From assembly GCF_003633715.1 (NCBI RefSeq), contig NZ_RBIE01000001.1, positions 853,331 to 917,330 of the forward strand: 64,000 nucleotides of DNA. Direction: 5' to 3'. This stretch comes from Thermovibrio guaymasensis. Its GTDB lineage: Bacteria; Aquificota; Aquificia; Desulfurobacteriales; Desulfurobacteriaceae. Below the pieces are notes generated by a model. The model made no database searches. It was not told where the DNA came from and saw only the letters and a program-made list of their open reading frames with translations. How positions within the stretch are numbered: the first letter of the stretch is position 1; every line of letters starts with the position of its first letter. Shown in pieces: positions 32,717-46,757 of this stretch. Made by a program: the position numbers and the translations under genes.

Positions 32717-34228
32717 TTACCTGAGAAGCTGAAGGACAAGCTGAGGAAGCTGGTTGGCCTGAGCCAGCATAGCCATACCAGACTGCATAAGAGTCTGATA
32801 CCTTGTGAACTCAGCCATCTCCTTAGCAAAGTCTACGTTTCTAATTCTTGATTCAGCTTCTCTAGTTTGAGTAGCTGCAAAGTTGTTGTTATCAATAATA
32901 GCCTGAAGGTTCTGTTGAATTGAACCTAACTTTGCTCTCATATTATCTACTTTCTTAATAGCTATATCTACCACCTTTATTGAAATTTCTGCATCTTCAT
33001 TAGAAGTAACTTTCAGATCCGTAAGTTTCTGCAATTCCGAAGTACTAACAGCACTTACTCCTAGACCAGCCTCAATTCCTGTAACATCCCAACCGAAAGA
33101 ATTTGAAGACAAGACTTTAAGATCTCCCACTTTCATAGCAGAACCAGTACCACCAGAAACGCTTCCTGTTGCTCCTTCCAATAAAGTCGATAAATCAACA
33201 GTAGTACCTGAACCCGCTACAACCTCTAATCCAATAGTACTTCCATCAGTAGAAAGGACTAACCTTTCTCCGCTTTTTGAAGCTGTTAGCTCAACACCTG
33301 CGTTTTGAGCTGCTGAGTTAATATCAGCGATTAGTTTATCCAAAGTAAGAGTAGTTCCTGAAGCGTAACTTAAAGTAATATCCGCACTGCTTCCGTTTTT
33401 GTTACCTATGTAAAACTTGATAGTTAAACCACTTGTACCAACAGAAATATCTGAGAAGTTGGTATCGGCAACGCTCTTATTGAAAGCCATAGCTTCTATT
33501 CCCTTTTCTTTTAGCTCTTCAGAACTGTTAATGTAATCTGCTAAGGCCTTTGCATCTACTGCTCCACCATCATTAAAGGCTCCTGATAAGTCTACACCTT
33601 CTATTTTTACTGTATCGTTGCTGCTATTATACGCATAACCAGTATTAGCAGTTAACAAATTAGCATAGCTCTTTGAAGCATCTGAAACTTTCCCTCCCTG
33701 ACCGTTAAGCATAAAAGCACCTAAATCGTCAGCCTTTGCACTATCTATTGATATTGTAAGAGTTTGTTGGGCTCTAGCTCCGTAATGGATAGCCATATCC
33801 TGGAAACTTCCATCTAACAGCTTTATTCCGTTAAACTCAGAACTTGACGCTATCCTGTCAATAGCATCAACAAGCTTGTTAATATCCTCCTGAAGAGCGT
33901 TCCTTTCATTAGCATCATTTGTATCACTAGCAGCCTGTGAAGCTTTTGTATAGATCGTTACAAGCTTGTCATAAATCTGCGATAAAGAAGATTCAGCTAT
34001 TTGAGAGGCAGAGATACCATCTTGAGCGTTTCTTACACCCTGATCAAGGGCGTTTGCAACAAGCTTAAGTTGATCAGCAATAAACAACCCAGCAGCGTCA
34101 TCTTTAGCTGAGTTAATCCTATAACCTGTAGACAGCCTTTCTAATGCAGTATTAAGGTTCCTCTCTGTTTTTAATAAGTTTACATGGGTAAAATCTGCTT
34201 GATAATTGTAGTTAATCCTCAGAGCCAT
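32717..34228 (-). CDS. fliC: Flagellin
   Basis: Filament subunit of 503 residues. Conserved D0/D1 regions at both ends: MALRINYNYQADFTHVNLLK, ERLSTGYRINSAKDDAAGL and, at the C-terminus, REAESRIRNVDFAKEMAEF and MAMLAQANQLPQ. The central 170-420 segment is Ser/Thr/Gly-rich and variable, offering many O-glycosylation sites; the upstream maf and pse genes suggest it is glycosylated. Own sigma-28 promoter and strong terminator. Confidence 0.97.
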   Translation of the reverse strand: MALRINYNYQADFTHVNLLKTERNLNTALERLSTGYRINSAKDDAAGLFIADQLKLVANALDQGVRNAQDGISASQIAESSLSQIYDKLVTIYTKASQAASDTNDANERNALQEDINKLVDAIDRIASSSEFNGIKLLDGSFQDMAIHYGARAQQTLTISIDSAKADDLGAFMLNGQGGKVSDASKSYANLLTANTGYAYNSSNDTVKIEGVDLSGAFNDGGAVDAKALADYINSSEELKEKGIEAMAFNKSVADTNFSDISVGTSGLTIKFYIGNKNGSSADITLSYASGTTLTLDKLIADINSAAQNAGVELTASKSGERLVLSTDGSTIGLEVVAGSGTTVDLSTLLEGATGSVSGGTGSAMKVGDLKVLSSNSFGWDVTGIEAGLGVSAVSTSELQKLTDLKVTSNEDAEISIKVVDIAIKKVDNMRAKLGSIQQNLQAIIDNNNFAATQTREAESRIRNVDFAKEMAEFTRYQTLMQSGMAMLAQANQLPQLVLQLLR

Positions 34229-34260
34229 TTCATACCTCCTTTACTGTGGTTTTATTAGCA

Positions 34261-34287
34261 TTATCGGAACCAGCCTCAATTTTTTTA
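34261..34287 (-). promoter_or_regulatory. Sigma-28 (FliA) promoter of flagellin
   Basis: On the minus strand TAAA (34287-34284), exactly 15 bases, then TCCGATAA (34268-34261); the consensus is TAAA-N15-GCCGATAA. The -35 element overlaps the stop codon of the maf gene. It implies a FliA sigma factor elsewhere in the genome. Confidence 0.88.
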
Positions 34288-36168
34288 GACTTTTGCCAAC
34301 TTTCCTAAAGCTTGAAACATAGAAAAAAGAGAATGGTAGATATAGCTCGCTAGCCTCTCTCTTTCTTTATATTCCAAATTAGAGAAAAAGTTTTTTGCTT
34401 CCATATCAAATAGTAGAACATACCTAACAAGAATCAAATAAACATGGTAAGCCATATTATCAAGGAGAATAAATTTAAAAAAATCAGAAGAGGCAAGGGT
34501 CATTAATAATTCAAACGATTTAACTAAAGCTTCCAAATCCCCTTTTTTTGAAAACTTATTCAACATTTTTTGCCAAGAGTTTAAGCTTAAAAGAATCTCA
34601 TTTAACTCTTCTTTAAAACTCCGTTTAACTTGAATCTCCATTTTGCTAATGGATTTAAAATAATTTCTAAAGGAACTTAAAACTATTTCCTTAGGCTTTT
34701 CTGAATTTTCTAAAGATGAAGTAACCTCGTCTAAGGTTATAGAAACTGTTCCATCAATAAAAACTCCATCTGATGTATTAATAACGTAAAAATTTGGGTA
34801 TTTCTCTTTATAAAACGAAATCTGTTCCTCAAATACCTTCTTTGACATATAAAAGTCAGCAGGAGCCCAAACTTCCCCGCCAAAGTTTCCTTTAAGCCAC
34901 TTACCCTGTCTTTCCGAAAGGATGTACTTATCAAAATCCGTATAAAACCTAGAGTGCAATCTATCCTCTATCTTAGTTCCCAAATCTACACCAACCAGAA
35001 CGAATTTTCTAAAACCAAGCCTTACAAAGAAATCAAAAGCAAAATTAAGCACAGTAGGTGATGGGAAAAGCGGAGCAGAAATGCTTTCAGATAGACTGAA
35101 CATATTTGCAAATCTTCCCAATCCGAAGAAAAATCCCCTTCCTCCTTCAAATTTATTTATGTAATTCCTATCTACTTCCGGAGAACCGAAGAATAGAACT
35201 TCCCTCAAAGCTCCTTTATTAGTTACTTCCCTTAGAAAAACCTTATCCATATTTTTCATAGGATCTATAGCTACATTAATATCTGGAAGAACTCCCTCCA
35301 TAAGTAAAGGTTTTATAGCAGATCCTAAAGCAACAACTAAATGTTTCTTCTGAATCTCCTTCAATAACGGCAAAGCTTTATCAACAGAAGGTCCTGAACC
35401 AATAAAAAAAACCTTTGTCTCTTTAGCAGGAAGTTCTACATCTAACAAAAATTCATTTCTAGAATTTACAATGTTTTTTCTCAGGGACAAAGCCGCATTA
35501 ACAATGTTCTCCGGTAAAGAAGACAAGAGTAACTTTTCATAAATATCTTTCAAGCTATTCTCAATTTCTTTAAGCTCTTTGCTCTCATAAGATTTAAAGT
35601 AGGCACTAAAAGGACGTAAATTTATTATCTCCGTAATCTTAGGCTCTGCAACCGAAAAATCAATATAAAGAGAAAAATTCGGAATTTGGAGCAGTATCTT
35701 TTCTAAATCTATCAAACCTAAAAATAAATAAATAAACTCAGGACGCGGTTCAATAACAATTACATGTTCTAACTTAGGAAATTTTTTTTTAAGATTGGAT
35801 ATATGAAAAAAAGGGAAAGTCCCGAGAACAATTAAAGAATCAAGCTTTCTAACAAATTTTTTCCTTGACATAGAAAGAGTGGTGAACTTATTTTTTAAGT
35901 CCCTCAGTATCTTCGAAACGGGCCCTTCAACTACAAACGGCTTATGAATTAAGCCCAAAGAATCTTCTTTATCCAAAAGACCTAGAGCTGTTTGCTTTAA
36001 ATTTACAAATCTCTGTCCTTTATATATCAGAGTGTAGTCATTCTTCTCATCTCTTAGAAAAAGCCCTTCTAGAGAACCATTCTCAATATACATTGACAGT
36101 TTTTTTACAAATGCAGGATTAAAACTTGCCAATAAGCTCAAATTTTTACGCAGAACAACTGGATTCAT
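34285..36168 (-). CDS. maf: Motility accessory factor (Maf), flagellin nonulosonic acid transferase
   Basis: DUF115/6-hydroxymethylpterin pyrophosphokinase-like protein of 627 residues. The core FFIGSGPSVDKALPLLKE ... DINVAIDPMKNMDKVF ... FVLVGVDLGTKIEDRLHSR is the Maf nucleotide-sugar binding signature. The flanking N-terminal (to about 240) and C-terminal helical domains are as in other Maf proteins. Mafs transfer CMP-pseudaminic or legionaminic acid to flagellin Ser/Thr. It lies directly between the pse genes and flagellin, which supports that role. AT-rich like the pse block. Confidence 0.88.
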   Translation of the reverse strand: MNPVVLRKNLSLLASFNPAFVKKLSMYIENGSLEGLFLRDEKNDYTLIYKGQRFVNLKQTALGLLDKEDSLGLIHKPFVVEGPVSKILRDLKNKFTTLSMSRKKFVRKLDSLIVLGTFPFFHISNLKKKFPKLEHVIVIEPRPEFIYLFLGLIDLEKILLQIPNFSLYIDFSVAEPKITEIINLRPFSAYFKSYESKELKEIENSLKDIYEKLLLSSLPENIVNAALSLRKNIVNSRNEFLLDVELPAKETKVFFIGSGPSVDKALPLLKEIQKKHLVVALGSAIKPLLMEGVLPDINVAIDPMKNMDKVFLREVTNKGALREVLFFGSPEVDRNYINKFEGGRGFFFGLGRFANMFSLSESISAPLFPSPTVLNFAFDFFVRLGFRKFVLVGVDLGTKIEDRLHSRFYTDFDKYILSERQGKWLKGNFGGEVWAPADFYMSKKVFEEQISFYKEKYPNFYVINTSDGVFIDGTVSITLDEVTSSLENSEKPKEIVLSSFRNYFKSISKMEIQVKRSFKEELNEILLSLNSWQKMLNKFSKKGDLEALVKSFELLMTLASSDFFKFILLDNMAYHVYLILVRYVLLFDMEAKNFFSNLEYKERERLASYIYHSLFSMFQALGKLAKV

Positions 36169-36184
36169 TATTACACTCCTAAAA

Positions 36185-37237
36185 TTAATCTATCATATTC
36201 CAATTTAAAGGAGTTCCTTTTTTTATATTAACCTTCGCTTTCTTACCTATCACCTCCTTTAAGAACCGAGGATGTAATCCACCTGCAGGCCTTACAGATC
36301 TAACGTTTTCCTCTGTAAAAACTTCTCCAGCTTTAACATCCTTAACAACAAATAACGACCTAGCATACTTCCTAGCTTCCTTCATACTATCACTAAGCTC
36401 GTAAGAAACTTTTCCTAAAGCTATTTCCACCTCCCTTATAGCTTTCACCATTTCCTTGAACTCATCAGGCGTAAGAGAAAATGCTTTATCCGGAGTATCT
36501 AAATCCTTGGATAAAATAAAATGCTTTTCTATTACTTTCGCTCCTAAAGCTACTGCAGCAATTGGCACAGAAATTCCTAAAGTATGATCCGAAAGTCCTA
36601 CTATACAACCAAAAGTTTCTATCATGTTAGGAATTGTCTTCAAGTTTACATCTTCCAAAGAAGTAGGATAAGCTGAAACACACTTTAAAAGAATCATCTG
36701 GTCATTACCAACTCTTTTACAAGCTTCAACTGCTTCTTGAATATCACAGAGAGTGGCCACTCCCGTAGAAATCAAAATAGGCTTACCTTTTGAAGCAACA
36801 TACTCTATGAGAGGAATATCCGTTATTTCATAAGAAGCAATTTTATACGCAGGAACATCTAACCCCTCTAAGAAATCTACGGCAGTTTTATCAAAAGGAG
36901 TAGAGAAAAAAACTAATCCTAGTTTTTCAGCTAATTCCTTTAATTCGTAATGCCATTCCCACGGAGTGTAAGCTTCTTGATAAAGCTCATAAAGAGTCCT
37001 TCCATCCCACAAAGTGCCACCAGTAATTTGAAAAAATTGGTTCTTACAGTCTATAGTTATAGTATCTGGAGTATATGTTTGAAGTTTAACCGCATCTGCT
37101 CCGGATTCTTTTATAGCATAAATAGTATCTTTAGCCAATTCTATGTCCTGTTTATGGTTCGCTGAAAGTTCTGCTACAATAAAAGTAGGACCGTTAAAAG
37201 AAACTATTTTCTTTCCAATTCTTATTTCCTTCTGCAC
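36185..37237 (-). CDS. pseI: Pseudaminic acid synthase (NeuB/PseI family)
   Basis: Condenses phosphoenolpyruvate with the hexose released by PseG to give a nonulosonic acid. TIM-barrel NeuB domain (IVAELSANHKQDIELAKD, ADAVKLQTYTPDTI, STGVATLCDIQEAV, IGLSDHT-like VGLSDHTLG, VIEKHFILSKDLDTPD) plus a C-terminal SAF antifreeze-like domain from about 285. 350 residues, normal. PseI rather than NeuB/LegI is chosen because pseB, pseC, pseG and a cytidylyltransferase gene lie in the same cluster. Confidence 0.9.
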   Translation of the reverse strand: MQKEIRIGKKIVSFNGPTFIVAELSANHKQDIELAKDTIYAIKESGADAVKLQTYTPDTITIDCKNQFFQITGGTLWDGRTLYELYQEAYTPWEWHYELKELAEKLGLVFFSTPFDKTAVDFLEGLDVPAYKIASYEITDIPLIEYVASKGKPILISTGVATLCDIQEAVEACKRVGNDQMILLKCVSAYPTSLEDVNLKTIPNMIETFGCIVGLSDHTLGISVPIAAVALGAKVIEKHFILSKDLDTPDKAFSLTPDEFKEMVKAIREVEIALGKVSYELSDSMKEARKYARSLFVVKDVKAGEVFTEENVRSVRPAGGLHPRFLKEVIGKKAKVNIKKGTPLNWNMID

Positions 37238-37261
37238 TTTATCCTCCTTTGTCTAGTTTAC

Positions 37262-38431
37262 TTAAACTACAACTGGGAAAACTAATTCATTTATCCTCTG
37301 AACGACTTCAATCATTTCTTTCTCTGACTCAAAATCAAAAAAATATATCCCAACTTGATTTCTAAGATAATCTTTTATTTCTGTCCCTATATTCATTAAT
37401 TGAATTTTATAGATAATTTTCCTTTTCAGGGAACTATCAACAAATATTTCTTTCAATACGCCGTTTCTTGATGCCATTAAACAATGTCTAACTACAAATC
37501 TCTTTCTGCTTGCTACAAGCAACGAATACTCTATCCTATCACCAATAAAAGCCTTAACAGTCGCCTCCGAATATTTTATCCCAGTCGAAAATTCAATTAG
37601 ATAAGGGAAAAGATCCCCTGGTATCCTTCTAGAAACATCAATAATGTAAGGAATATTGTTCTTTAGGATAACCTGCAAATGGAAAGGACCATCTTTCAAA
37701 CCTAAAAGCTGAATAATCTTCTTTACGTTTTCTCTTAGTATTCCCAATGAACTATTATTTATTTTTATTGGATAAGCCGTTGTTATTAAAAACTTATTTA
37801 AGTAAACATCATCTTTTGCTACAAAATCAAAGGCAATATCGTGATCTTTTACAAAAACCGAATAAGCTATGAGCTTGCCATCTATGAATTCTTCTACTAG
37901 GACTTCCTTTTCTTGAGAAGTTTCTTGAGCAAGTTTTATGGCTTTTTTTAAAGCGTTCCTGTCTTTAGCTACAGAAACACCCCTACCTCCAGAAAGACAA
38001 AGAGGCTTGACTATACAGGGAAAAGAAATATTAATAGCATCTATTTCTTCAATAGAAGAAACTTTCACTCCTTTTGGCACTAAAATATTGTTTGTTAAGC
38101 AAAACTTCTTAAAATTCCATTTATTATGAATTATATTAATCACATTCAAACTATCAAAATTTCCTATTTTGTGTTTTTTCCCTAAAATTATCGTATTTAT
38201 TAAAGCCTTTTCTCCGCATCCGGGAATTAAAACATCAACTTTTTCATCCATAACTATCGCTGAAACCTTATCTAAATCATTAAAGTCTATTTTATAGCTT
38301 TTATCAGAGAACATATGTCCCACATAATAATCTCTATTTCCTAGAGTTATGACAAAATATCCCAATTTTTTAGCTGCCATAATAAGAGGAATATCTCTGT
38401 GACTACCTCCTAGTATCAATGCTTTTTTCAC
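37262..38431 (-). CDS. ATP-grasp ligase in the pseudaminic acid cluster
   Basis: A 389-residue protein. The N-terminal pre-ATP-grasp Rossmann half (KALILGGSHRDIPLIMAAKKLG) is like carbamoyl-phosphate synthase/PurK-type ligases. The ATP-grasp core contains FPCIVKPLCLSGGRGVSVAKD (phosphate loop), VLVEEFIDGKLIAYSVFV and FHLQVILKNNIPYIIDVSRR with the metal-binding acidic and Asn-equivalent positions. Such enzymes join a carboxylate to an amine or thiol. It sits between pseG and pseI, overlapping pseG by 29 bases, while PseH, the acetyltransferase of the pathway, is missing. It may acylate the sugar 4-amine or the finished nonulosonate; this is inference. GTG start. Confidence 0.8.
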   Translation of the reverse strand: MKKALILGGSHRDIPLIMAAKKLGYFVITLGNRDYYVGHMFSDKSYKIDFNDLDKVSAIVMDEKVDVLIPGCGEKALINTIILGKKHKIGNFDSLNVINIIHNKWNFKKFCLTNNILVPKGVKVSSIEEIDAINISFPCIVKPLCLSGGRGVSVAKDRNALKKAIKLAQETSQEKEVLVEEFIDGKLIAYSVFVKDHDIAFDFVAKDDVYLNKFLITTAYPIKINNSSLGILRENVKKIIQLLGLKDGPFHLQVILKNNIPYIIDVSRRIPGDLFPYLIEFSTGIKYSEATVKAFIGDRIEYSLLVASRKRFVVRHCLMASRNGVLKEIFVDSSLKRKIIYKIQLMNIGTEIKDYLRNQVGIYFFDFESEKEMIEVVQRINELVFPVVV

Positions 38432-39419
38432 GATAGAACCTCACTAGTTTATTAACTAATCTTTTACTTCCACGACCATCAACAATATTTCTACCTATTA
38501 AGGATCTTCTCCTTACTTTAGTATAATTACTCATCATAAAATGAAGGCTAGACCTTATTTTACTTAGTAACAATGGATCTTCGTAACTTAAATACTCTTT
38601 TAAATAGCCTTTATTCACGAATTCATACAAACCTCTTCTCTGATTGTCAGCTACGCAAATAGCAATAGTAGGAATCTGCAAATATGCAAGTTCGTAAAGG
38701 GTCATGCCGGCAGCCGATATCGCTAAATCACTCATGGCCATTTTTCTAGCAAGCACTCCCGGATCTGGATTTAATAGAACTTCCACATCAGGAAAGTTCT
38801 GACGAATATCAATAGCTATCTTCCTGCTACCAGTTACTACTACCTTTCTGAACGAAGAGAAAGTATTTTCCTTTAGTAGCTTTAGAACTTTAGCAGATAA
38901 ATTAATCACATCTGTTCCACCAAACATAAGAAATATCTGATTTATCCTATCTTTTTTATCTTTTCGAATTTTAGAAATTTCAAGAAAGGCTTTTCTTATA
39001 GGTATATATTGAGGACCCAACAGGTAGTAATTTGACTCATTTTTTCTATTCTCAAAGATTTTTTCAGCACATAAAGAAAAATTAACAATTATTCCTCTAG
39101 GATAATCTATTCTAGCATTATCATCTAAGAATACAGGAATTTTAACTTTGCTTGAAATTTCTTCATATAGGTCATAATCTGCAATATAACTATCAACAAT
39201 TACAATATCAAAGTTTTCCAAAGTTTTTAAAACTTCTTTATTTTCCAACCAATTCACTTCTTTGAATTCAAGAGTTTTATAATATATTTTATCACTTAAA
39301 TCAATATATACAACAGGTTTTATTCCAATCTCTATAAAAGCTTCGTAAATAGCTGAACATCTAATGACATGCCCCAATCCCCTTTTTTCTCCTCCTTCAG
39401 TTAGAATTGCTACTTGCAA
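38403..39419 (-). CDS. pseG: UDP-2,4-diacylamino-trideoxy-altropyranose hydrolase PseG
   Basis: Removes UDP in the fourth step of pseudaminic acid synthesis. Starts MQVAILTEGGEKRGLGHVIRC: the G-x-GHV/I-x-R loop is the PseG active-site signature. A GT-B fold second half has LMFGGTDVINLSAKVLKLL and DLAISAAGMTLYELAYLQIP. The 338 residues are fully used by these two domains, leaving no room for a fused PseH acetyltransferase. Overlaps pseF by 10 bases. Confidence 0.88.
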   Translation of the reverse strand: MQVAILTEGGEKRGLGHVIRCSAIYEAFIEIGIKPVVYIDLSDKIYYKTLEFKEVNWLENKEVLKTLENFDIVIVDSYIADYDLYEEISSKVKIPVFLDDNARIDYPRGIIVNFSLCAEKIFENRKNESNYYLLGPQYIPIRKAFLEISKIRKDKKDRINQIFLMFGGTDVINLSAKVLKLLKENTFSSFRKVVVTGSRKIAIDIRQNFPDVEVLLNPDPGVLARKMAMSDLAISAAGMTLYELAYLQIPTIAICVADNQRRGLYEFVNKGYLKEYLSYEDPLLLSKIRSSLHFMMSNYTKVRRRSLIGRNIVDGRGSKRLVNKLVRFYREKSIDTRR

Positions 39420-40246
39420 TTTTCCTCCAAGAACCTTTTCACTCTATTTAGTTCTTGTAATTCAAGTATTTTCACTGCTTCTTCCAGTTCTTCTTCAAAA
39501 GAGTCATAAATCTTCTTCTGAATAACCCTGTGATTAATTAGTTTTAACCATGGTTTCTTTAGGAATAACTCTATAATATCTTTCGTAGTGAAAAATTTCT
39601 TTTGTGGATAAAGATACTCAAAAACGGCACATAACAAAGCATAATCCTCAGGAGTATCTAAAGTAACACGTATGTCAGGTGCATAAAGAGAAGTTTCTGC
39701 TTTCATTAGCGCTATTCTGAATTTTTGTGGCGCTGTTTTATAAATATAAGGACACACATGCTCTCTCTCAAAATCTCTATTAGCTTCTCTATGAGCTAAT
39801 TCCAAAGTAGAGAAAGTGAAAACTTCTACATCTCCACATCCATGAGGATAACTCCTTTCTACTCCAACATAATCTAAGTTATCCTTTAATAGTTTACTAA
39901 TAGCTTTATCTACAATATTCCAATCAATGCAAGGACAATCACTTGTAATTCTTGCTATTATATCTATATTGTTTTTCCTAGCACATTGATAATACCTCTC
40001 AAGCACGTCTTTTTCACTACCTCTAAAGCATTTTACATCTTCCTTTCTTGAAATTTCAACTATAGGATCATCTTCAGGATTGACTGTAGTTGCAACTATT
40101 ATTTCATCAAGCATATTCGATTTCTTTAATCTTCTTATAACTTGTTCCAGTACAGTGACCCCACTACCATATGGAAGATCTTTTAAAACTTTTTTAGGAA
40201 ATCTTGTTGATGTAGTTCTTGCCTGAACAATTGCCGCTAATCTCAT
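39410..40246 (-). CDS. pseF: Cytidylyltransferase (SpsF/PseF-like), CMP-nonulosonate formation
   Basis: Nucleotidyltransferase with the opening AAIVQARTTSTRFPKKVLKDL and ITSDCPCIDWNIVDKAI, the SpsF (COG1861) pattern. In Pse clusters this enzyme activates the nonulosonate with CTP. 278 residues; the C-terminal 60 are helical and charged. It begins a sub-block pseF-pseG-ATP-grasp-pseI-maf with overlapping or nearly abutting genes. Upstream is a 164-base AT-rich gap in which I see no convincing promoter. Confidence 0.82.
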   Translation of the reverse strand: MRLAAIVQARTTSTRFPKKVLKDLPYGSGVTVLEQVIRRLKKSNMLDEIIVATTVNPEDDPIVEISRKEDVKCFRGSEKDVLERYYQCARKNNIDIIARITSDCPCIDWNIVDKAISKLLKDNLDYVGVERSYPHGCGDVEVFTFSTLELAHREANRDFEREHVCPYIYKTAPQKFRIALMKAETSLYAPDIRVTLDTPEDYALLCAVFEYLYPQKKFFTTKDIIELFLKKPWLKLINHRVIQKKIYDSFEEELEEAVKILELQELNRVKRFLEENCK

Positions 40247-40410
40247 ACTATATCTAACCTCTCAAATTTTACGCAGTGTTACTTCCCATCGCCGTAAATC
40301 AAAATGAATTTATCCATTCTTTATCAAGACAGTACAGGATTATCCTAATCAAAATTTATCTTTTCTCCCTGGAAAAGTCCAAGTAATAGACGATATCTCC
40401 CTATTTTTTC

Positions 40411-41520
40411 TCAATATTTTATCTCCACTTTATTATTAATTATTGAAGATTTAACAATTGCATCAAGCACTTTAAAACTCTCCTTTTCATCCTTAAATGT
40501 CCATATGACGGGATTCACAGAATAAGGTTTACCCTTTAAATAATTCTCTAAAGCATCTGCTATCTCATAATAAAGATTAGCAAACGCTTCTATAAATCCT
40601 GCCGGATGTCCAGGTGTCATTCTATTGTATAGTCTTACCTTCGAAATCTCAAGGTTAGCTCCTCTATCCAAAATACATTTTTTCCCGTTCCTATAGTTTA
40701 CATATAGTTTCTCCGGTTCCTCCTGAATCCAAACAGCTGATGCCTTCGTACCGTAAATAGAAACTTTTAGGCCATTCCTATTTCCAAATGCAACTTTACT
40801 AACCCATAGAAAACCTGTTGCTTCATCTTCATAGTCCAATATCACCTTTACTTCATCAACAACGTTGTAAGAAGAAAAAGATTTAAGCACAGAATAAACA
40901 GATTTTATCCTTTTTCCAGTAAGATATTTAGAGAGACTTAAAAGATGAGACGCAAGATCAAGCAGTATAACAGGTATGTTACCATCTTTTTTTCTCCATA
41001 CAGGAGGATAATCAACAGATTTTGGGGGTCTTAGAAAGCTTTCTTGAGGCATCTCAAGATGGATATTGATGACTTTTCCGAAGATACCCTCTGAAATCAT
41101 CCTTTTTAATTCACAAAGAATAGGATACGCTATATAATTGTAAGTAATTACAAGGAATTTATCATTTAAGTCTACCTCATTTTCTAACTTTATTAATTCT
41201 TCTAAAGAAGAAAATAAAGGCTTTTCACATATAACAGGAATATCATTCTCCAATAGTTTTTTAACTACCCTAAAATGATCAGGCGTTGGAAGTAAAACAG
41301 ACACTGCATCCAATCTTTTTTTTTCTTTCTCTATAAATTCTTCAAAGGAGTTATAGAAACGTTCTACATCCCAGAATTCTGCAGTCTTCTTATTTATTTC
41401 TAAATTTCTACTGAAAACTCCTGAGACTACTTTAAATCTCTTATCCATTTGACTAGCAACAAAGTGGGTATAGCCTACAACTGAGTTTAATCCACCTCCC
41501 AAAATACCTAATCTAAACAA
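40411..41520 (-). CDS. Gfo/Idh/MocA family NAD(P)-dependent sugar oxidoreductase
   Basis: A 369-residue dehydrogenase with the N-terminal Rossmann LGILGGGLNSVVGYTHF, the EKP motif (VICEKPLFSS, Lys important for catalysis) and the alpha/beta C-terminal domain. Its position between pseF and the FkbM methyltransferase implies a sugar substrate, perhaps a second nucleotide sugar or a modified nonulosonate. It is not part of the standard Pse pathway. Exact reaction unknown. Confidence 0.82.
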   Translation of the reverse strand: MFRLGILGGGLNSVVGYTHFVASQMDKRFKVVSGVFSRNLEINKKTAEFWDVERFYNSFEEFIEKEKKRLDAVSVLLPTPDHFRVVKKLLENDIPVICEKPLFSSLEELIKLENEVDLNDKFLVITYNYIAYPILCELKRMISEGIFGKVINIHLEMPQESFLRPPKSVDYPPVWRKKDGNIPVILLDLASHLLSLSKYLTGKRIKSVYSVLKSFSSYNVVDEVKVILDYEDEATGFLWVSKVAFGNRNGLKVSIYGTKASAVWIQEEPEKLYVNYRNGKKCILDRGANLEISKVRLYNRMTPGHPAGFIEAFANLYYEIADALENYLKGKPYSVNPVIWTFKDEKESFKVLDAIVKSSIINNKVEIKY

Positions 41521-41543
41521 TGGATAATTCCTCCATAAAAACT

Positions 41544-42629
41544 TTAATTTTTAGGAACACAATAGAGTACAGTCTCTAACCCAAAATGCCCGTGAACTCT
41601 TATATAAAGTTTATAAAAGGAAAACTCCTTACTTATTAAAAGCGGTATTTCCCACAAATCTTCAGGACGATGATAAATAGATACAGCTAAATAAGGTTTC
41701 TCTTTTTTAATTACTTCCTTTGCACCTTTAAGAGCTTCCATTTCTGCTCCCTCTACATCCATTTTTATGTATGTAGGAGCTGAACCTTTTAGTATTTCAT
41801 CAAGGGTTACAAGAGGAACAATATTTTCTGACGAAACATTAGATATCCTTGATGAGGAGCCTGCCGAATCAAAGCCTGCATATCCAGGAGAACTCCACAC
41901 TGCAGCAGGAATGACAGTAAAATCCGTTCTTGGATATAAGTTCTTTAAACATTTTATCGTTTTATTCAAAATATGTATATTTTCCCTTCCAGGTTCAAAA
42001 CATACTATAGATTCCACTTTCTCGCCATAAATATAAAATAGCCAAGGAAGTGTATCTCCTATAAAACTTCCAACATCCACAAATTTTATTTTTTTCCAAC
42101 TTCTCGGAATTATACCCATTGGGAAATACAAAATCTCCTTTGAAGGAAACAAATAAGACTCATAGGAAAAATTTTCTCTAAAATTTATTATTCTTTCTAA
42201 GAATTTTTTACTTTGCTCATCTGCTAAAATATCTTCTACTTTACGAAGTTTTTCATAGTTTAACATCCTTTTTCTTTCTTTTCTCCACCAAAGATGTTCA
42301 TCTTCTAAGAATAGTTTAAAAAATTCAGGAAATTCTTTTAACCATTCAGTAAAATTAATTACTTTAGTAAATCCATAATCTTTCAATATTTGTGAAGAAA
42401 ACAGATATCTATCTCCAACTATTTCCTTTATTACTTTAGGAACTTTATAGGGAACCTCCAAAACAGAAACATAAACAACTACATTCTTTGGAGCATCCTC
42501 TAACTTGTAAATTGGTACATCCCCTAGAGAATTTCTTCCTGAATACTGATCTATATTTATACCTCTCTTCTTTAAAACCGAATATAGCTTCTTTCCAAGC
42601 TTCCCTGCGCCGTATATAGCTACTTCCAT
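41544..42629 (-). CDS. FkbM-family methyltransferase with N-terminal Rossmann-like domain
   Basis: The C-terminal half (about 165-361) is FkbM-type: IKFVDVGSFIGDTLPWLF (SAM-binding), IVCFEPGRENIHIL, IVPLVTLDEIL and YIKMDVEGAEMEALKG. The first 90 residues (MEVAIYGAGKLGKKLYSVLKK) resemble a nucleotide-binding or PglD-like domain. FkbM enzymes O-methylate sugars in antibiotics and surface polysaccharides. The ATG at 42629 with GAGGA six bases upstream is preferred over a TTG 12 bases earlier. It probably methylates a surface sugar made here. Confidence 0.82.
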   Translation of the reverse strand: MEVAIYGAGKLGKKLYSVLKKRGINIDQYSGRNSLGDVPIYKLEDAPKNVVVYVSVLEVPYKVPKVIKEIVGDRYLFSSQILKDYGFTKVINFTEWLKEFPEFFKLFLEDEHLWWRKERKRMLNYEKLRKVEDILADEQSKKFLERIINFRENFSYESYLFPSKEILYFPMGIIPRSWKKIKFVDVGSFIGDTLPWLFYIYGEKVESIVCFEPGRENIHILNKTIKCLKNLYPRTDFTVIPAAVWSSPGYAGFDSAGSSSRISNVSSENIVPLVTLDEILKGSAPTYIKMDVEGAEMEALKGAKEVIKKEKPYLAVSIYHRPEDLWEIPLLISKEFSFYKLYIRVHGHFGLETVLYCVPKN

Positions 42630-42716
42630 TATTGTCCTCAAAAAGCTGTTTTTAGTTTTTCACTAAAACTTTCGTTATTCAATTGTTATACCTACTAGCT
42701 TACAGTACGCAAAAAT

Positions 42717-43724
42717 TTAAAACTTTATATTTCTTTTCAAAAGTTCCAATTTTTCTTTAAGCTCTTCAATAGAAAGCCATTTTTCATTTCTATCAGAAGA
42801 ATATTTAAATCCTTCAGGAACCTTTTTAGCTCCTTTAGTAAATGCTCCACTTTTCTTTTTCCAATTGATAGAAGGATAAATAACATAATAATCGCCAAAA
42901 TCATATGTTGTTCTTGCGTCTTCTTCAGTTATCATAATCTCATGAAGCTTTTCTCCTGGTCGTATTCCAACTTTAACTAACTTACAATCAGGACATATAG
43001 CTTTAGCTAAATCAACAATCCTAAAAGAAGGAATTTTTGCAACAAAAATTTCTCCACCTAAGGAATCCTTTAAAGCTCTTAAAACGAGAGCTACTCCTTC
43101 TTCCAAAGTTATCCAAAATCTAGTCATTCTAAAATCAGTAATTGGAAGTTCTTTTTTTCCTTTATTCACAAGGCTCATAAAAAATGGAATAACAGAACCT
43201 CTACTGCCTGCAACATTCCCATATCTAACAATAGAAAAAGAAGTTTTTTTTCCACCAGCATAAGCATTTGCAGCTATAAAAAGTTTATCCGCAACTAACT
43301 TTGTTGCTCCATAAAGATTAATAGGATTAACTGCTTTATCCGTAGAAAGCGCAACAACCTTTTCCACACCCCTATCAATAGCAGCATTTATCACATTCTC
43401 AGCTCCATAAATATTTGTTTTAACAGCTTCTATAGGATTATACTCCATTAAAGGAACATGTTTTAAAGCAGCAGCATGAATGACTATATCAACTCCATCA
43501 AAAGCCCTATAAAGACGCTCCTTATCTCTAACATCCCCTATAAAAAACCGCAATTTTTCTATATGTTTCTTAAATTCCTGTTGCATCCAGTACTGTTTAT
43601 ACTCATCCCTGGAGTAAATAATTACCTTTTTAGGATTAAAATCTTCCAAAATCTTTTTCGCAAACGCTTTACCAAAAGAACCTGTACCTCCGGTTATTAG
43701 AATCACTTTATTATCGATACTCAC
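42717..43724 (-). CDS. pseB: UDP-GlcNAc 4,6-dehydratase (inverting) PseB
   Basis: First enzyme of pseudaminic acid synthesis, inverting C5 during dehydration. Extended SDR: ITGGTGSFGKAF (NADP loop), AALKHVPLMEYNP, YGATKLVADK (YxxxK) and RYGNVAGSRGSVIPFF, all characteristic of PseB/FlaA1. 335 residues, normal. ATG or GTG start near GAGGAGG. Separated from pseC by an IS element. Two small inverted repeats lie in its 110-base leader (about 43738-43756 and 43766-43779). Confidence 0.93.
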   Translation of the reverse strand: MSIDNKVILITGGTGSFGKAFAKKILEDFNPKKVIIYSRDEYKQYWMQQEFKKHIEKLRFFIGDVRDKERLYRAFDGVDIVIHAAALKHVPLMEYNPIEAVKTNIYGAENVINAAIDRGVEKVVALSTDKAVNPINLYGATKLVADKLFIAANAYAGGKKTSFSIVRYGNVAGSRGSVIPFFMSLVNKGKKELPITDFRMTRFWITLEEGVALVLRALKDSLGGEIFVAKIPSFRIVDLAKAICPDCKLVKVGIRPGEKLHEIMITEEDARTTYDFGDYYVIYPSINWKKKSGAFTKGAKKVPEGFKYSSDRNEKWLSIEELKEKLELLKRNIKF

Positions 43725-43834
43725 AATCTACCTCCTCGATTAGATTTAAACTAATCTACCAATATCAAATTTTAATTTGAAAATATTTATCTTTTTCTCT
43801 TACTAACATCTTCTCAATTATACTCTTTATGAAA

Positions 43835-44010
43835 GTGAACTACTCCTCATTTCAATGAGGAGTTTCCCGCTTCAACGAGGGCGTTAGCTCTCTCCACGGG
43901 CGTAAGCTCGGGCCGTTCCAGCCCTACCACTCGTATGGTGAGCAACCCCTTTAACTGTTTTAGTCCTTCCTTTAGCAGGTTCAGGGGTGCATTGTAATCC
44001 CTATCGTGTT
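43835..44010 (-). ncRNA. Putative omega RNA (reRNA) of TnpB
   Basis: In IS605 elements the guide RNA overlaps the 3' end of tnpB and runs through the right end. Here the tnpB tail contains several short complementary stretches (GGGCTGG/GGCCC, ACGCCCGTGGAGAG, GCGGGAAACTCC) and ends in the terminal hairpin and TAGTTCAC. The guide would be the bases following on the minus strand (43834 downward). The 5' limit is a guess. Confidence 0.45.
43842..43863. repeat. Right-end hairpin of the IS element
   Basis: A perfect 10-bp inverted repeat ACTCCTCATT/AATGAGGAGT with a 2-base loop, overlapping the tnpB stop codon. Subterminal palindromes are what TnpA recognises on single-stranded DNA. Confidence 0.8.
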
Positions 44011-45028
44011 CTGCTCCACACTTGGGACACTTCCACTTCCTATCAGACAACTTGAGGTTCTCGTTCTTGTATCCACACACAGAGTAGAGTTTTGATGAGG
44101 GATAAAACAGGTTTATCTTGATGAGCTTCCTACCGTAGAGCTTCGCTTTATACTCCAGATAAGAGATAAACCTTCTCCAGCTTGCGTCTGCTATGTGTTT
44201 GGAAAAGTTGCTGTTTTTGAGTAGTCCCTTGACGTTTAAATCCTCTACTATCACGGCTTGGTTATCGCCGATTATTTTCTTGCTTAGCTTATGGAGAAAA
44301 TCGTTCCTCTGATTTACTATCTTTTCGTGTAACTTTGCTATCCTCCTTTGGAGCTTGAGATATTTCTTGCTCCCTTTTACCTTCCTTGATAGCTTCCTTT
44401 GGAGCTTTTGGAGTTTCTCTTCTGTTTTTAGTAAGTGTCTTGGGTTTTCTATTTTCTCTCCCGTTGATAAGGTACAGAAGTGGGTAAGTCCTACATCTAT
44501 CGCTACTACATTCTCCGTTTTCGAAAGTGGTTCTATTTCCCTGTCAACGAGAACATTAAGATAGAACTTACCCGATGGAAGTTTTGTTATGGAAACGCTC
44601 CTTACTTTTCCTTCTATCTTCCTGTGCTTTTTGAACTTTATTGGTGTTTTGAGTTTTGGTATTTTGATTTTGTTTCCCTCTATGCGAAAGTGTTGTGGTA
44701 TTGATATGCTGTTTACACTCTTTTTGCTCTTGAATTTGGGAAATTTTGCAAGTCCTTTAAAGAAGTTCTTAAAAGCTCTATCAAGCCACTTTACCGCTTC
44801 TTGAAGTGATTGAGTGTTTGCTTCTTTGAGAAAAGGGGATTCTCCTTTAAGTTTTGGAAGTAGTTTTTTGTATTCGTAGTAGTTCCACTTCTTACCTTCT
44901 TTCTCGTAGTTTTCTTTTGCTATCTCAAGGAGCTTATTGTATACAAACCTGCAGTGTCCTATCTGGCGGTTTAGAAACTCTACCTGCTCTTTCGTAGGAT
45001 AAAGCCTGAATCTGTAAACGTAGAGCAT
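43847..45028 (-). CDS. tnpB: RNA-guided nuclease TnpB (IS605 OrfB), altered zinc finger
   Basis: A 393-residue TnpB. N-terminal wedge/REC (YRFRLYPTKEQVEFLNRQIGHCRFVYNKLLE), RuvC motifs with catalytic Asp178 (AIDVGLTHF), Glu262 (VEDLNV) and Asp344 (HDRDYNAPLN). The zinc ribbon reads KLYSVCGY ... CPKC: the first of four cysteines is Tyr315 (TAC at 44086-44084; one base from TGC), leaving C318, C334 and C337. The usual NAA after HDRD is NAP. It starts one base after the tnpA stop. Nuclease function is therefore uncertain. Confidence 0.92.
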   Translation of the reverse strand: MLYVYRFRLYPTKEQVEFLNRQIGHCRFVYNKLLEIAKENYEKEGKKWNYYEYKKLLPKLKGESPFLKEANTQSLQEAVKWLDRAFKNFFKGLAKFPKFKSKKSVNSISIPQHFRIEGNKIKIPKLKTPIKFKKHRKIEGKVRSVSITKLPSGKFYLNVLVDREIEPLSKTENVVAIDVGLTHFCTLSTGEKIENPRHLLKTEEKLQKLQRKLSRKVKGSKKYLKLQRRIAKLHEKIVNQRNDFLHKLSKKIIGDNQAVIVEDLNVKGLLKNSNFSKHIADASWRRFISYLEYKAKLYGRKLIKINLFYPSSKLYSVCGYKNENLKLSDRKWKCPKCGAEHDRDYNAPLNLLKEGLKQLKGLLTIRVVGLERPELTPVERANALVEAGNSSLK

Positions 45029-45451
45029 CTATTTCCTCTTCTGGTTCTCTAAATATTTGCGTATCACATCCTCAGAATTTGAACCTATTGTTTCTATATA
45101 GTAAGACGGATTCCACAAATGTCCTTTCCACAGTTTCTTTTTAAGCTCTGGAAATTTTAAAAACAGTTTTCTTGTGCTTATTCCCTTTACCATCTTTACT
45201 ATGTATGAAGGAGCTATTTTCGGATGTGCTGATACAAGGATGTAAACGTGGTCTTGCTCTCCTACTTCTACCATCGCTACTTCAAAACCTTTCTCTATTC
45301 CGCTTTCTACCATCACTCTCTTGAGGAAATCTTCCACTTCAGGAGTTAAAACTTTTTGCCTGTATTTAGTTGAAAATACTATGTGGTAATTGCAGTTATA
45401 TACGCAGGTTCTCCCTCTTCTTATGTTGGATTTCAAGTTTGATTTTCCCAT
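45029..45451 (-). CDS. tnpA: IS200/IS605 Y1 (HUH) transposase TnpA, altered HUH motif
   Basis: A 140-residue single-strand transposase. NYHIVFSTKYRQKVL opens the fold; the catalytic Tyr is in WNPSYYIETIG (Tyr117 or 118). The metal-binding HUH motif, normally DHVHLL, reads DHVYIL: the second His is Tyr70 (TAC at 45244-45242, one base from CAC). Loss of a metal ligand would be expected to impair cleavage. The frame is otherwise complete. Confidence 0.9.
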   Translation of the reverse strand: MGKSNLKSNIRRGRTCVYNCNYHIVFSTKYRQKVLTPEVEDFLKRVMVESGIEKGFEVAMVEVGEQDHVYILVSAHPKIAPSYIVKMVKGISTRKLFLKFPELKKKLWKGHLWNPSYYIETIGSNSEDVIRKYLENQKRK

Positions 45452-45502
45452 ACAGATTGTATATCACGCTCACATGAAAAAGCAAAGAGATAGCGCTTAT
45501 TC

Positions 45503-45567
45503 GTAACTGACACATAGTTACATAACGGCTTACGCCGTGCGCTGTATCTCTCCTTTGAAAAGGAGAG
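45503..45567. repeat. Left-end hairpins of the IS element
   Basis: Three perfect inverted repeats upstream of tnpA: GTAACT/AGTTAC (45503-45521, 7-base loop), ACGGC/GCCGT (45525-45538, 4-base loop) and CTCTCCTTT/AAAGGAGAG (45548-45567, 2-base loop). The outermost is the best candidate for the TnpA recognition hairpin. Confidence 0.65.
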
Positions 45568-45608
45568 GATTAACGCAAAATTTATCCTAAATAAGATTTA
45601 GCTTATTT

Positions 45609-46757
45609 CTAGTTTTCATAAATTTCCCTGAAAACTCCCTCAACTATTTCCAAGATATAATATACATCTTTATCAGTCATACGAGGATATATAGGCAAAC
45701 TTATTTCTCTCTCATAAAATTCCTCTGCCACCGGACATTCACCTCTGAAATACCCTAATTTTTGATAAAAAGGATGAAAATAAACTGGTATATAATGAAC
45801 CTGAACACCTAATCCTTTTCTCCTTAGGAGATCAAAAACCTCCTTTCTTTTTTCCCTATCTTTTACCTTTATGGGATATAAGTGGTAAGCATGATACACA
45901 TAGTCCTTTTCCGGAGGAATTTCAAAATAAAAATTACTCCTGAAAGCTTCATTATAAGTTTTTGCAATTTTTCTTCTTTTCTTAACAAATTTATCAAGTT
46001 TTTTGAGTTGAGAAATTCCAAGAGTTGCCTGAATATCACTCATACGATAGTTAAATCCCAAAAAATGCATTTCGTAATACCATTCTCCTTCCCAATGATT
46101 AATAAATTTTCTTTTATCTTTAGTTATTCCATGATTTCTAAACATCAAAAGTTTTTCATAAATATCCTGTCTATTAGTTAATACAGCCCCTCCTTCCCCC
46201 GTTGTTATGTGTTTAACTGGATGAAAACTAAAAACAGTAGCATCTGAATATTTACAACTTCCTATCTTAAAATTTCTATATTTTGCCCCTAAAGCATGAC
46301 AAGCATCCTCAACTATATGAAGTCCATACTTATCAGCAACCTCTTTTACTTTTTCCATATCACACGGATGACCTGCATAATGAACAGGTACTATCAATTT
46401 AGTTCGAGAAGTTATCTTTTCTTCCAAAAGCTCAACATTTAGATTACCAGTATCCATCTCAACATCACAAAAAACAGGTCTTGCTCCTAAAAAAAGTCCT
46501 GCATTTGAAGTTGCAACAAAGGTTAAAGGAGATGTTATAAATTCGTCTCCCTGCTCTAATCCTACAGCAAAGTAAGCTGCATGAAGAGCAGATGTACCAG
46601 AGTTAAAAACAACAGCATACTTAGCTCCTAAGTATTCTGCTAATAAACTTTCAAATTCCCTAATTCTAGATCCTTGGGTAATAAAATCTGTCTTTAAAAC
46701 ATCAATAACAGCATTTATATCTTCATCGTCAATCCATTGTCTCCCATAAGGAATCAT
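45609..46757 (-). CDS. pseC: UDP-4-amino-4,6-dideoxy-N-acetyl-altrosamine transaminase PseC
   Basis: PLP-dependent DegT/DnrJ/EryC1-family aminotransferase, second step of pseudaminic acid synthesis. FNSGTSALHAAYFAVGL binds PLP phosphate, VEDACHALGAKY supplies the PLP ring Asp, and FSFHPVKHITTGEGG has the Schiff-base Lys. 382 residues, normal. SD CGGAGG before the ATG. It lies 39 bases after ribD and is cut off from pseB by the IS. First gene of the AT-rich block. Confidence 0.92.
   Translation of the reverse strand: MIPYGRQWIDDEDINAVIDVLKTDFITQGSRIREFESLLAEYLGAKYAVVFNSGTSALHAAYFAVGLEQGDEFITSPLTFVATSNAGLFLGARPVFCDVEMDTGNLNVELLEEKITSRTKLIVPVHYAGHPCDMEKVKEVADKYGLHIVEDACHALGAKYRNFKIGSCKYSDATVFSFHPVKHITTGEGGAVLTNRQDIYEKLLMFRNHGITKDKRKFINHWEGEWYYEMHFLGFNYRMSDIQATLGISQLKKLDKFVKKRRKIAKTYNEAFRSNFYFEIPPEKDYVYHAYHLYPIKVKDREKRKEVFDLLRRKGLGVQVHYIPVYFHPFYQKLGYFRGECPVAEEFYEREISLPIYPRMTDKDVYYILEIVEGVFREIYEN

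Follow-up and report, generated by a model that had tools for sequence, protein, structure and literature searches.

An ATP-grasp protein in the PseH position of a flagellin-linked pseudaminic acid cluster of Thermovibrio guaymasensis

Here we analyzed a 64,000-nucleotide stretch of the Thermovibrio guaymasensis genome (RefSeq GCF_003633715.1, contig NZ_RBIE01000001.1, positions 853,331 to 917,330), hereafter the window, with a focus on a pseudaminic acid (Pse) cluster that lacks the acetyltransferase PseH and carries an ATP-grasp protein between pseG and pseI. The cluster occupies the minus strand from 46757 to 34285 and adjoins flagellin. Transcription runs through pseC, a transposon, pseB, FkbM, Gfo/Idh, SpsF, pseG, ATP-grasp, pseI, and Maf to flagellin, and the genes named in an earlier note on this DNA are all open and intact. 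Gene families were scored against NCBIfam models with curated cut-offs (equivalog for the Pse enzymes) and against Pfam models, giving the following assignments:

45609-46757, minus strand: pseC, UDP-4-amino-4,6-dideoxy-N-acetyl-beta-L-altrosamine transaminase, which makes the 4-amine (TIGR03588, 522 bits, cut-off 423.5)
45029-45451 and 43847-45028, minus strand: IS200/IS605-type TnpA and TnpB, between pseC and pseB and outside the pathway (named from sequence)
42717-43724, minus strand: pseB, UDP-N-acetylglucosamine (UDP-GlcNAc) 4,6-dehydratase, inverting (TIGR03589, 539.6 bits, cut-off 407.75)
41544-42641, minus strand: FkbM-family methyltransferase with an N-terminal extension (TIGR01444, 67.3 bits, over cut-off; PF05050)
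40411-41520, minus strand: Gfo/Idh/MocA oxidoreductase (PF01408, PF22725, PF02894)
39410-40246, minus strand: SpsF-type cytidylyltransferase (CTP_transf_3), probable CMP-nonulosonate synthetase (PF02348, 101.7 bits; under the PseF and KdsB cut-offs)
38403-39419, minus strand: pseG-like UDP-sugar hydrolase, 338 residues (TIGR03590, 119.9 bits, cut-off 153.55; GxGHxxR motif kept as GLGHVIR)
37262-38431, minus strand: ATP-grasp protein of the GGSHRDIP / RRIPGDL signature family, candidate 4-N-acyl ligase (PF13535, 46.8 bits; no NCBIfam model over cut-off)
36185-37237, minus strand: pseI, pseudaminic acid synthase (TIGR03586, 518.6 bits, cut-off 340.25)
34285-36168, minus strand: Maf-type flagellin glycosyltransferase, PseD/PseE-like (PF01973, 95.1 bits; NF050051, 50.2 bits)
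32717-34228, minus strand: flagellin, the likely acceptor (PF00669 and PF00700)

The reading frames after flagellin were taken as flaG, fliD, and fliS. The earlier note had reported PseB, PseC, PseF-like, PseG, and PseI proteins, and PseB, PseC, and PseI all exceed their equivalog cut-offs. PseG is present as a pseG-like gene with its GxGHxxR motif, but its model score falls short of the cut-off. "PseF-like" is a fair label for a cytidylyltransferase, but the protein is of the SpsF type; there is no true PseF in the window genome, where the cluster protein reaches 19.6 bits and the best other protein 33.1 bits against a cut-off of 205.7. The note had also placed the cluster at 36185-43724, which does contain the other pse genes but leaves out pseC, split off by the transposon. 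The overlap it described between the ATP-grasp gene and pseG is confirmed at 29 bp: the ATP-grasp start (38431), which lines up with the starts of its homologues, lies inside pseG, whose end is at 38403. The ATP-grasp stop lies 24 bp ahead of pseI.

The flagellin and glycan region (32717-46757) is A+T-rich, with 30-40% GC per kb, mostly 30-36%, compared with 42-47% in most of the flank, and it looks like an island that is mobile or has been exchanged. The pse stretch itself has 30-35% GC in most 1-kb segments. In a relative, G056, the corresponding cluster also contains a TnpB/Cas12f-like gene (PF07282; L007:7564-9051), suggesting that such elements enter these islands repeatedly. This composition, the transposon between pseC and pseB, and the lack of PseI in the other three genomes of the genus could all be explained by ordinary decay, with pseH lost, a flagellin carrying mono-acetyl Pse or none, and the ATP-grasp gene as an unrelated passenger. 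We give this scarcely any credence, as all of the genes are open, the ATP-grasp gene overlaps pseG and adjoins pseI, and its orthologues in other genera and in an Arcobacteraceae metagenome-assembled genome (MAG) keep the same neighbors.

The canonical CMP-pseudaminic acid pathway of Helicobacter and Campylobacter (PseB-C-H-G-I-F) is matched here by the PseB, PseC, and PseI equivalogs, the PseG-like hydrolase, and the adjacent Maf and flagellin genes. It differs in that the window has no PseH and an ATP-grasp protein in its place, an SpsF-type enzyme for PseF, and a PseG under cut-off. PseH was sought in the whole window genome (1.62 Mb, 99.98% complete) with the PseH model TIGR03585 and two GNAT models, each match being inspected. 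No protein exceeded the PseH cut-off; the sole match, at 25.9 bits against 93.1, is a RimI-like gene beside a TsaB-like gene. The Pfam GNAT models found three other proteins: an N-acetylglutamate-synthase-like protein (221.8 bits to NF005840, over cut-off), a 168-residue protein beside a MATE-type transporter, and a 93-residue protein. None of these GNATs is a plausible PseH. These searches ruled out an overlooked PseH, whether as a PseG fusion or at another place in the genome, and at 338 residues without a GNAT domain, PseG is too short to hold an acetyltransferase, as the earlier note had it. That note had named a pseH gene elsewhere in the genome, set beforehand, as one part of what would speak against its reading that the ATP-grasp protein takes the PseH step; the genome-wide search was negative.

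We compared the cluster with those in 136 genomes of the window's phylum (G and L codes denote genomes and loci, and G000 is the window genome), calling ATP-grasp orthologues by profile matches at E <= 1e-25. PseI is over cut-off in 31 of the 136 genomes and PseH in 16, 15 of them with PseI. ATP-grasp orthologues are found in five genomes, four with PseI, and in all four the ATP-grasp gene adjoins pseI or sits one gene away, so this arrangement is not due to chance. PseH and the ATP-grasp protein occur together in none of the 136 genomes.

At the position where PseH belongs, every flagellin-type cluster compared encodes an enzyme able to acylate an amine. The gene order is SpsF-PseG-(formyltransferase C-terminal-domain protein)-LmbE-like-PseH-PseI in G050 and G098, and SpsF-PseG-formyltransferase-PseI in G010, which belongs to the window's family; a formyltransferase also follows PseG in G106. 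These formyltransferase-like genes (PF00551) lie at L051:2359-2982 (G010) and L057:382-987 (G106), after pseG and without PseH, which would predict an N-formyl pseudaminic acid. In G019 and G103, a GNAT domain is fused to PseG, followed by PseI. G102 and G112 have a distant PseG, a hexapeptide transferase, a 305-307-residue protein, WbqC, and then PseI, possibly a further N-acylation route. In this stretch (L055:6668-9012 and L058:10184-12556), the 305-307-residue protein is conserved and has no Pfam family, and the last gene is WbqC-like. The ATP-grasp clusters read PseG-ATP-grasp-PseI in G054, PseG-radical SAM-aldehyde dehydrogenase (ALDH)-ATP-grasp-PseI in G056, and radical SAM-ALDH-ATP-grasp-FkbM-PseI in G097. 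The pseG-side position thus behaves as if it were an exchangeable slot for acyl-adding enzymes, and the ATP-grasp gene takes the same slot in other pseH-less genomes, the neighborhood that the earlier note had suggested looking for.

PseG acts directly on the N-acylated UDP-sugar, and PseB and PseC act before N-acylation. G050, with PseH, and G054, with the ATP-grasp protein, are congeneric; identity between them is 92% for both PseB and PseC and 86% for PseI, but only 29% for PseG. Similarly, between the window and the formyltransferase or GNAT clusters of the same family, identity is 80-83% for PseI, 74% for PseC, 72% for PseB, and 64-65% for SpsF, compared with 36-37% for PseG. PseG pairs among the GNAT and formyltransferase clusters are mostly 39-64% identical, whereas the G000 and G054 PseG proteins reach at most 39% to any of these at equal PseI identity. 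The PseG proteins of the hexapeptide clusters G102 and G112 are likewise divergent. Overall, PseG and the slot enzyme diverge together in two of the three clusters that are informative. The identities of the ATP-grasp protein are also those expected of a gene that moves separately: the window protein is 50% identical to an Arcobacteraceae protein and 36-42% to those of its own phylum, while PseI is 74-78% identical within the phylum and 46% to Arcobacteraceae.

Outside the phylum, breadth rests on the Arcobacteraceae MAG locus L009 and plasmid records, the named-genome scan being a single-protein query that gave one locus. L009, the source of the 50%-identical ATP-grasp protein, reads PseB-PseC-PseF-x-PseI-PseG-ATP-grasp. 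On an Aureibacter plasmid, a 24%-identical ATP-grasp protein lies in a pseB-pseC-pseF-ATPgrasp-PseG-hexapeptide-pseI cluster. Plasmid ATP-grasp proteins of Rhizobium, Brachyspira, and Bacteroides are 25-28% identical, with no pse genes within the stretches viewed. Those of Rhizobium and Bacteroides have DegT-family aminotransferases nearby, and in Rhizobium a Gfo/Idh gene 39% identical to that of the window directly follows the ATP-grasp gene.

A paralogue within the phylum points to the amine substrate. The gene order in G110 is ALDH, a 31%-identical ATP-grasp protein, a WecF-like transferase, and then WecE (630.3 bits to PRK11706, cut-off 375), with flagellin a few genes away. WecE makes a 4-amino-4,6-dideoxygalactose nucleotide, which the GNAT WecD usually acetylates. 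The G110 contig, cut off upstream, shows no GNAT. The ATP-grasp protein would here occupy the acyltransferase position of another 4-amino-4,6-dideoxysugar pathway, and the flagellin glycan of G110 may be of a 4-amino-fucose (Fuc4N) type that is N-acylated through the ATP-grasp protein. A 4-amino-4,6-dideoxyhexose nucleotide is common to the PseC and WecE settings. The G110 stretch (L052:1-5149) holds, in addition to the ALDH, the paralogue, the WecF-like protein, and WecE, a methyltransferase shortly before flagellin.

An AlphaFold2 model of the window ATP-grasp protein, built from six sequences, has a complete ATP-grasp fold (mean pLDDT 86.9, pTM 0.86). PreATP-grasp, ATP-grasp, and C-terminal domains cover the full length, with PF13535 and other Pfam models over cut-off. 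In six orthologues and paralogues, the ATP-binding residues K142-P143 and G148-G149-x-G151 and the acidic hinge E180-E181 are invariant. Q253 is also invariant and, with an Asp/Glu in the IIDV/LELT/VEIT stretch, aligns with the Gln and Glu of carbamoyl-phosphate synthetase at two metal-ligand positions. A comparison with named ATP-grasp families, of the kind that the earlier note had proposed, covered PurK, PurT, PurD, CarB, Ddl, PylC, RimK, and DdaF and gave none over its NCBIfam cut-off among the matches listed, the best being 58.6 bits against 625. Among PDB structures, 4dim, deposited under the name phosphoribosylglycinamide synthetase, matches best, and the L-amino acid ligases RizA and BL00235 come next. 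These share the overall fold (Foldseek E 1e-23, TM about 0.7-0.8), and BL00235 has distant sequence similarity at 70 bits, but the window protein is only 18% identical over the structural alignments.

RizA and BL00235, the closest named structural matches, form dipeptides, so the window protein could conceivably make the donor, such as a dipeptide or an activated acid, or serve another sugar of the same glycan and leave the Pse precursor untouched. Gfo/Idh, FkbM, and SpsF could serve such a second sugar, and since L009 has a true PseF along with an SpsF-type enzyme, SpsF may activate another sugar there. This would leave the PseH step without an enzyme, and the partners conserved across genomes are PseG and PseI, or WecE in G110, with no second sugar pathway. 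We regard it as quite improbable.

The genes present, the lack of any PseH, the exchange of slot enzymes, and the PseG co-divergence in two clusters lead us to infer a reaction, its position in the pathway, an order of steps, and a type of acid. PseB and PseC would convert UDP-GlcNAc to UDP-4-amino-4,6-dideoxy-beta-L-AltNAc. The ATP-grasp protein would then activate a carboxylic acid with ATP, as an acyl phosphate, and form an amide bond to the 4-amine, the step taken elsewhere by PseH with acetyl-CoA. PseG would take off UDP, and PseI would condense the hexose with phosphoenolpyruvate, placing the acyl group at N7 of pseudaminic acid. SpsF would form the CMP sugar and Maf would transfer it to flagellin, while Gfo/Idh and FkbM probably make or O-methylate the donor acid. 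It seems reasonably likely that an ATP-dependent 4-N-acyl ligase stands in for PseH in this way, acting on UDP-4-amino-4,6-dideoxy-L-AltNAc, and the acid group displayed on the flagellum is probably unusual and of larger size. The slot exchange, the PseG divergence, and the WecE-paired paralogue, all read from sequence, support the ATP-grasp-for-PseH assignment put forward in the earlier note.

Several points weigh against this assignment. The non-co-occurrence of PseH and the ATP-grasp protein is weak alone (P about 0.058, hand-calculated as C(16,4)/C(31,4)), and the genomes cannot be treated as independent samples; gene order is the stronger evidence. The last metal-binding Asn usual in ATP-grasp enzymes is Ser/Thr here. 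Gfo/Idh is likewise present in clusters with PseH or a formyltransferase, there alongside AMP-binding enzymes. Co-divergence is not universal, as the G056 PseG is 59% identical to that of the PseH cluster in G050. In two further cases the ATP-grasp protein may act alongside another possible acetyltransferase: L009 has a PseH-like GNAT at the far end of its cluster (39.8 bits, cut-off 93.1), and Aureibacter carries a hexapeptide transferase.

The last two points would also suit an enzyme that works at a later point or another site, with free Pse or CMP-Pse as its substrate (at N5, O8, or a free N7 amine). The 4-amine would then either stay unmodified during the PseG and PseI steps or be acetylated by an enzyme not recognized here. 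This is the main alternative, and precedents from two other flagella bear on it as well as on the 4-N-acyl ligase. In Shewanella oneidensis, SfmE, an ATP-grasp_4 protein of the sfmABCDE operon, is needed for full flagellin modification (PMC3765264). The flagellin there carries a mono-acetyl 274-Da Pse-like sugar with a separate 236-264 Da nitrogen-free, O-methylated unit, and the mass shift of the sfmE mutant is only slightly smaller than those of the other mutants (PMC3765264). As in the window, the flagellin-glycan operon encodes an ATP-grasp_4 protein together with a PseI-like protein and a methyltransferase; PseB and PseC are present, and the authors find no clear PseH (PMC3765264). However, SfmA is PseI-like in its N-terminal domain only, the operon differs, and SfmE is not tied to the PseH step (PMC3765264); SfmE is likened here by description only. 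In Campylobacter jejuni NCTC 11168, flagellin Pse carries an amide-linked 2,3-di-O-methylglyceroyl group that requires the aminopeptidase-like Cj1295 and sits on N5, added, the authors propose, after acetyl removal (PMC3068675). This matches the product type suggested here, in which flagellin Pse bears an O-methylated hydroxy acid through an amide bond, but the C. jejuni group is on N5, its protein is aminopeptidase-like, and its pathway contains PseH. Later action is nevertheless harder to reconcile with the window genome, which has no other candidate N-acetyltransferase, with an ATP-grasp gene between PseG and PseI that overlaps pseG, with the PseG divergence in G000 and G054, and with a paralogue that pairs with WecE where there is no Pse. 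We consider it unlikely, though it deserves appreciable weight.

For the 4-N-acyl ligase, the donor acid may be narrowed by its neighbors. Gfo/Idh orthologues occur in seven of the 136 genomes, all with PseI. Where these clusters are readable, the carboxylate-activating enzyme is either an ATP-grasp protein (G000, G054, and also L009) or an AMP-binding enzyme (G028, G106, G134, and G124); the G022 copy is cut by a contig end and its surroundings are not readable. Gfo/Idh as an exclusive ATP-grasp partner was rejected, as it accompanies AMP-binding enzymes too. FkbM adjoins or accompanies Gfo/Idh in G000, G054, G134, and G028. In G028, G106, and G134 (L081, L082, and L080, respectively), Gfo/Idh is found with an AMP-binding ligase, an aminoglycoside-N-acetyltransferase-like protein, and proteins with DUF2172/DUF4910 domains, which we take to be Cj1295-like. 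The gene sets of these three genomes resemble the C. jejuni di-O-methylglyceroyl locus. An ALDH directly precedes the ATP-grasp gene in G056 and G097, both without Gfo/Idh. As a general ATP-grasp partner, ALDH was narrowed to G056, G097, and G110, and the window cluster has none.

Gfo/Idh is thus a candidate maker of the donor acid or its precursor, and FkbM a candidate O-methylase of the acyl donor or the glycan. The most economical guess is an oxidised, perhaps O-methylated hydroxy acid, favored by the Gfo/Idh and FkbM neighbors and by the ALDH or iron-type alcohol dehydrogenase among the neighbors in relatives. The earlier note had proposed an amino acid or other acid; an amino acid is only one option, and the neighbors point more to a hydroxy or O-methylated acid. 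A group of this kind is reportedly found on the flagellin nonulosonic acid of Treponema denticola as N7-(2-methoxy-4,5,6-trihydroxyhexanoyl), for which 274.1 + 176.1 gives 450.2 Da. The T. denticola flagellin glycan has a mass of 450.2 Da (PMC9481697).

More broadly, the pseG region may be a general N-acylation exchange slot (GNAT, formyltransferase, hexapeptide/WbqC, or ATP-grasp, with an AMP-ligase and AAC(3)-like protein elsewhere in the cluster). The ATP-grasp family would then comprise nucleotide-sugar 4-N-acyl ligases acting on L-AltNAc4N with PseC and on Fuc4N with WecE, and the flagellins would carry N7-(O-methyl-hydroxyacyl) pseudaminic acids. We put forward this combined proposal tentatively, with somewhat less than even confidence.

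That ATP-grasp proteins occur in flagellin-glycan loci is already known. For example, the terminal peptidylamido-sugar on the type B flagellin glycan of Clostridioides difficile depends on the PF13535 ATP-grasp protein CDR20291_0245 (PMC5207246, PMC5207245). As in the window, an ATP-grasp_4 gene lies near a sugar aminotransferase gene, here FdtB-like and two genes away, and the mutant lacks the terminal amide-substituted amino sugar. Conversely, the sugar is 3-amino-fucose (Fuc3N) with a Gly-Ala-taurine cap rather than Pse, the papers name no reaction, and CDR20291_0245 is likened by description only. In Clostridium, cytidylyltransferases and PseG have been assigned via homology to the B. subtilis sps genes and PseH via its N-acetyltransferase domain (PMC13317340). 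In the literature searched on pseudaminic or nonulosonic acid with ATP-grasp, we found no account of a PseH replacement supported by slot exchange.

Clusters without PseH are easily taken for incomplete or for makers of plain Pse5Ac7Ac. If the slot reading is true, the N7 substituent of a flagellin sugar would be predictable from one gene, and an ATP-grasp family so far labelled by domain only would gain a substrate class. On the same reading, an enzyme would be at hand for some flagellin nonulosonates that bear amide-linked acyl groups and to which the cited papers assign no ligase. In vitro, ATP-grasp ligation would allow N-acyl nonulosonic acids to be made directly from free acids, with no need for CoA thioesters.

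Two further proteins recur in the pse clusters of the phylum. A conserved 354-362-residue protein with weak similarity to the GH32 N-terminal domain is found in many of them (L006:10461-11531, L048:5032-6102, L007:12321-13385, and L086:5758-6846). A 678-688-residue protein is present at L081:12033-14069, L086:7454-9520, and L087:8613-10652. By Pfam, the L081 protein is a fusion of a cytidylyltransferase and a class-III aminotransferase, and those of L086 and L087 are alike in length and by BLAST. In G056, the cytidylyltransferase and class-III aminotransferase are separate overlapping genes (L007:9336-11398).

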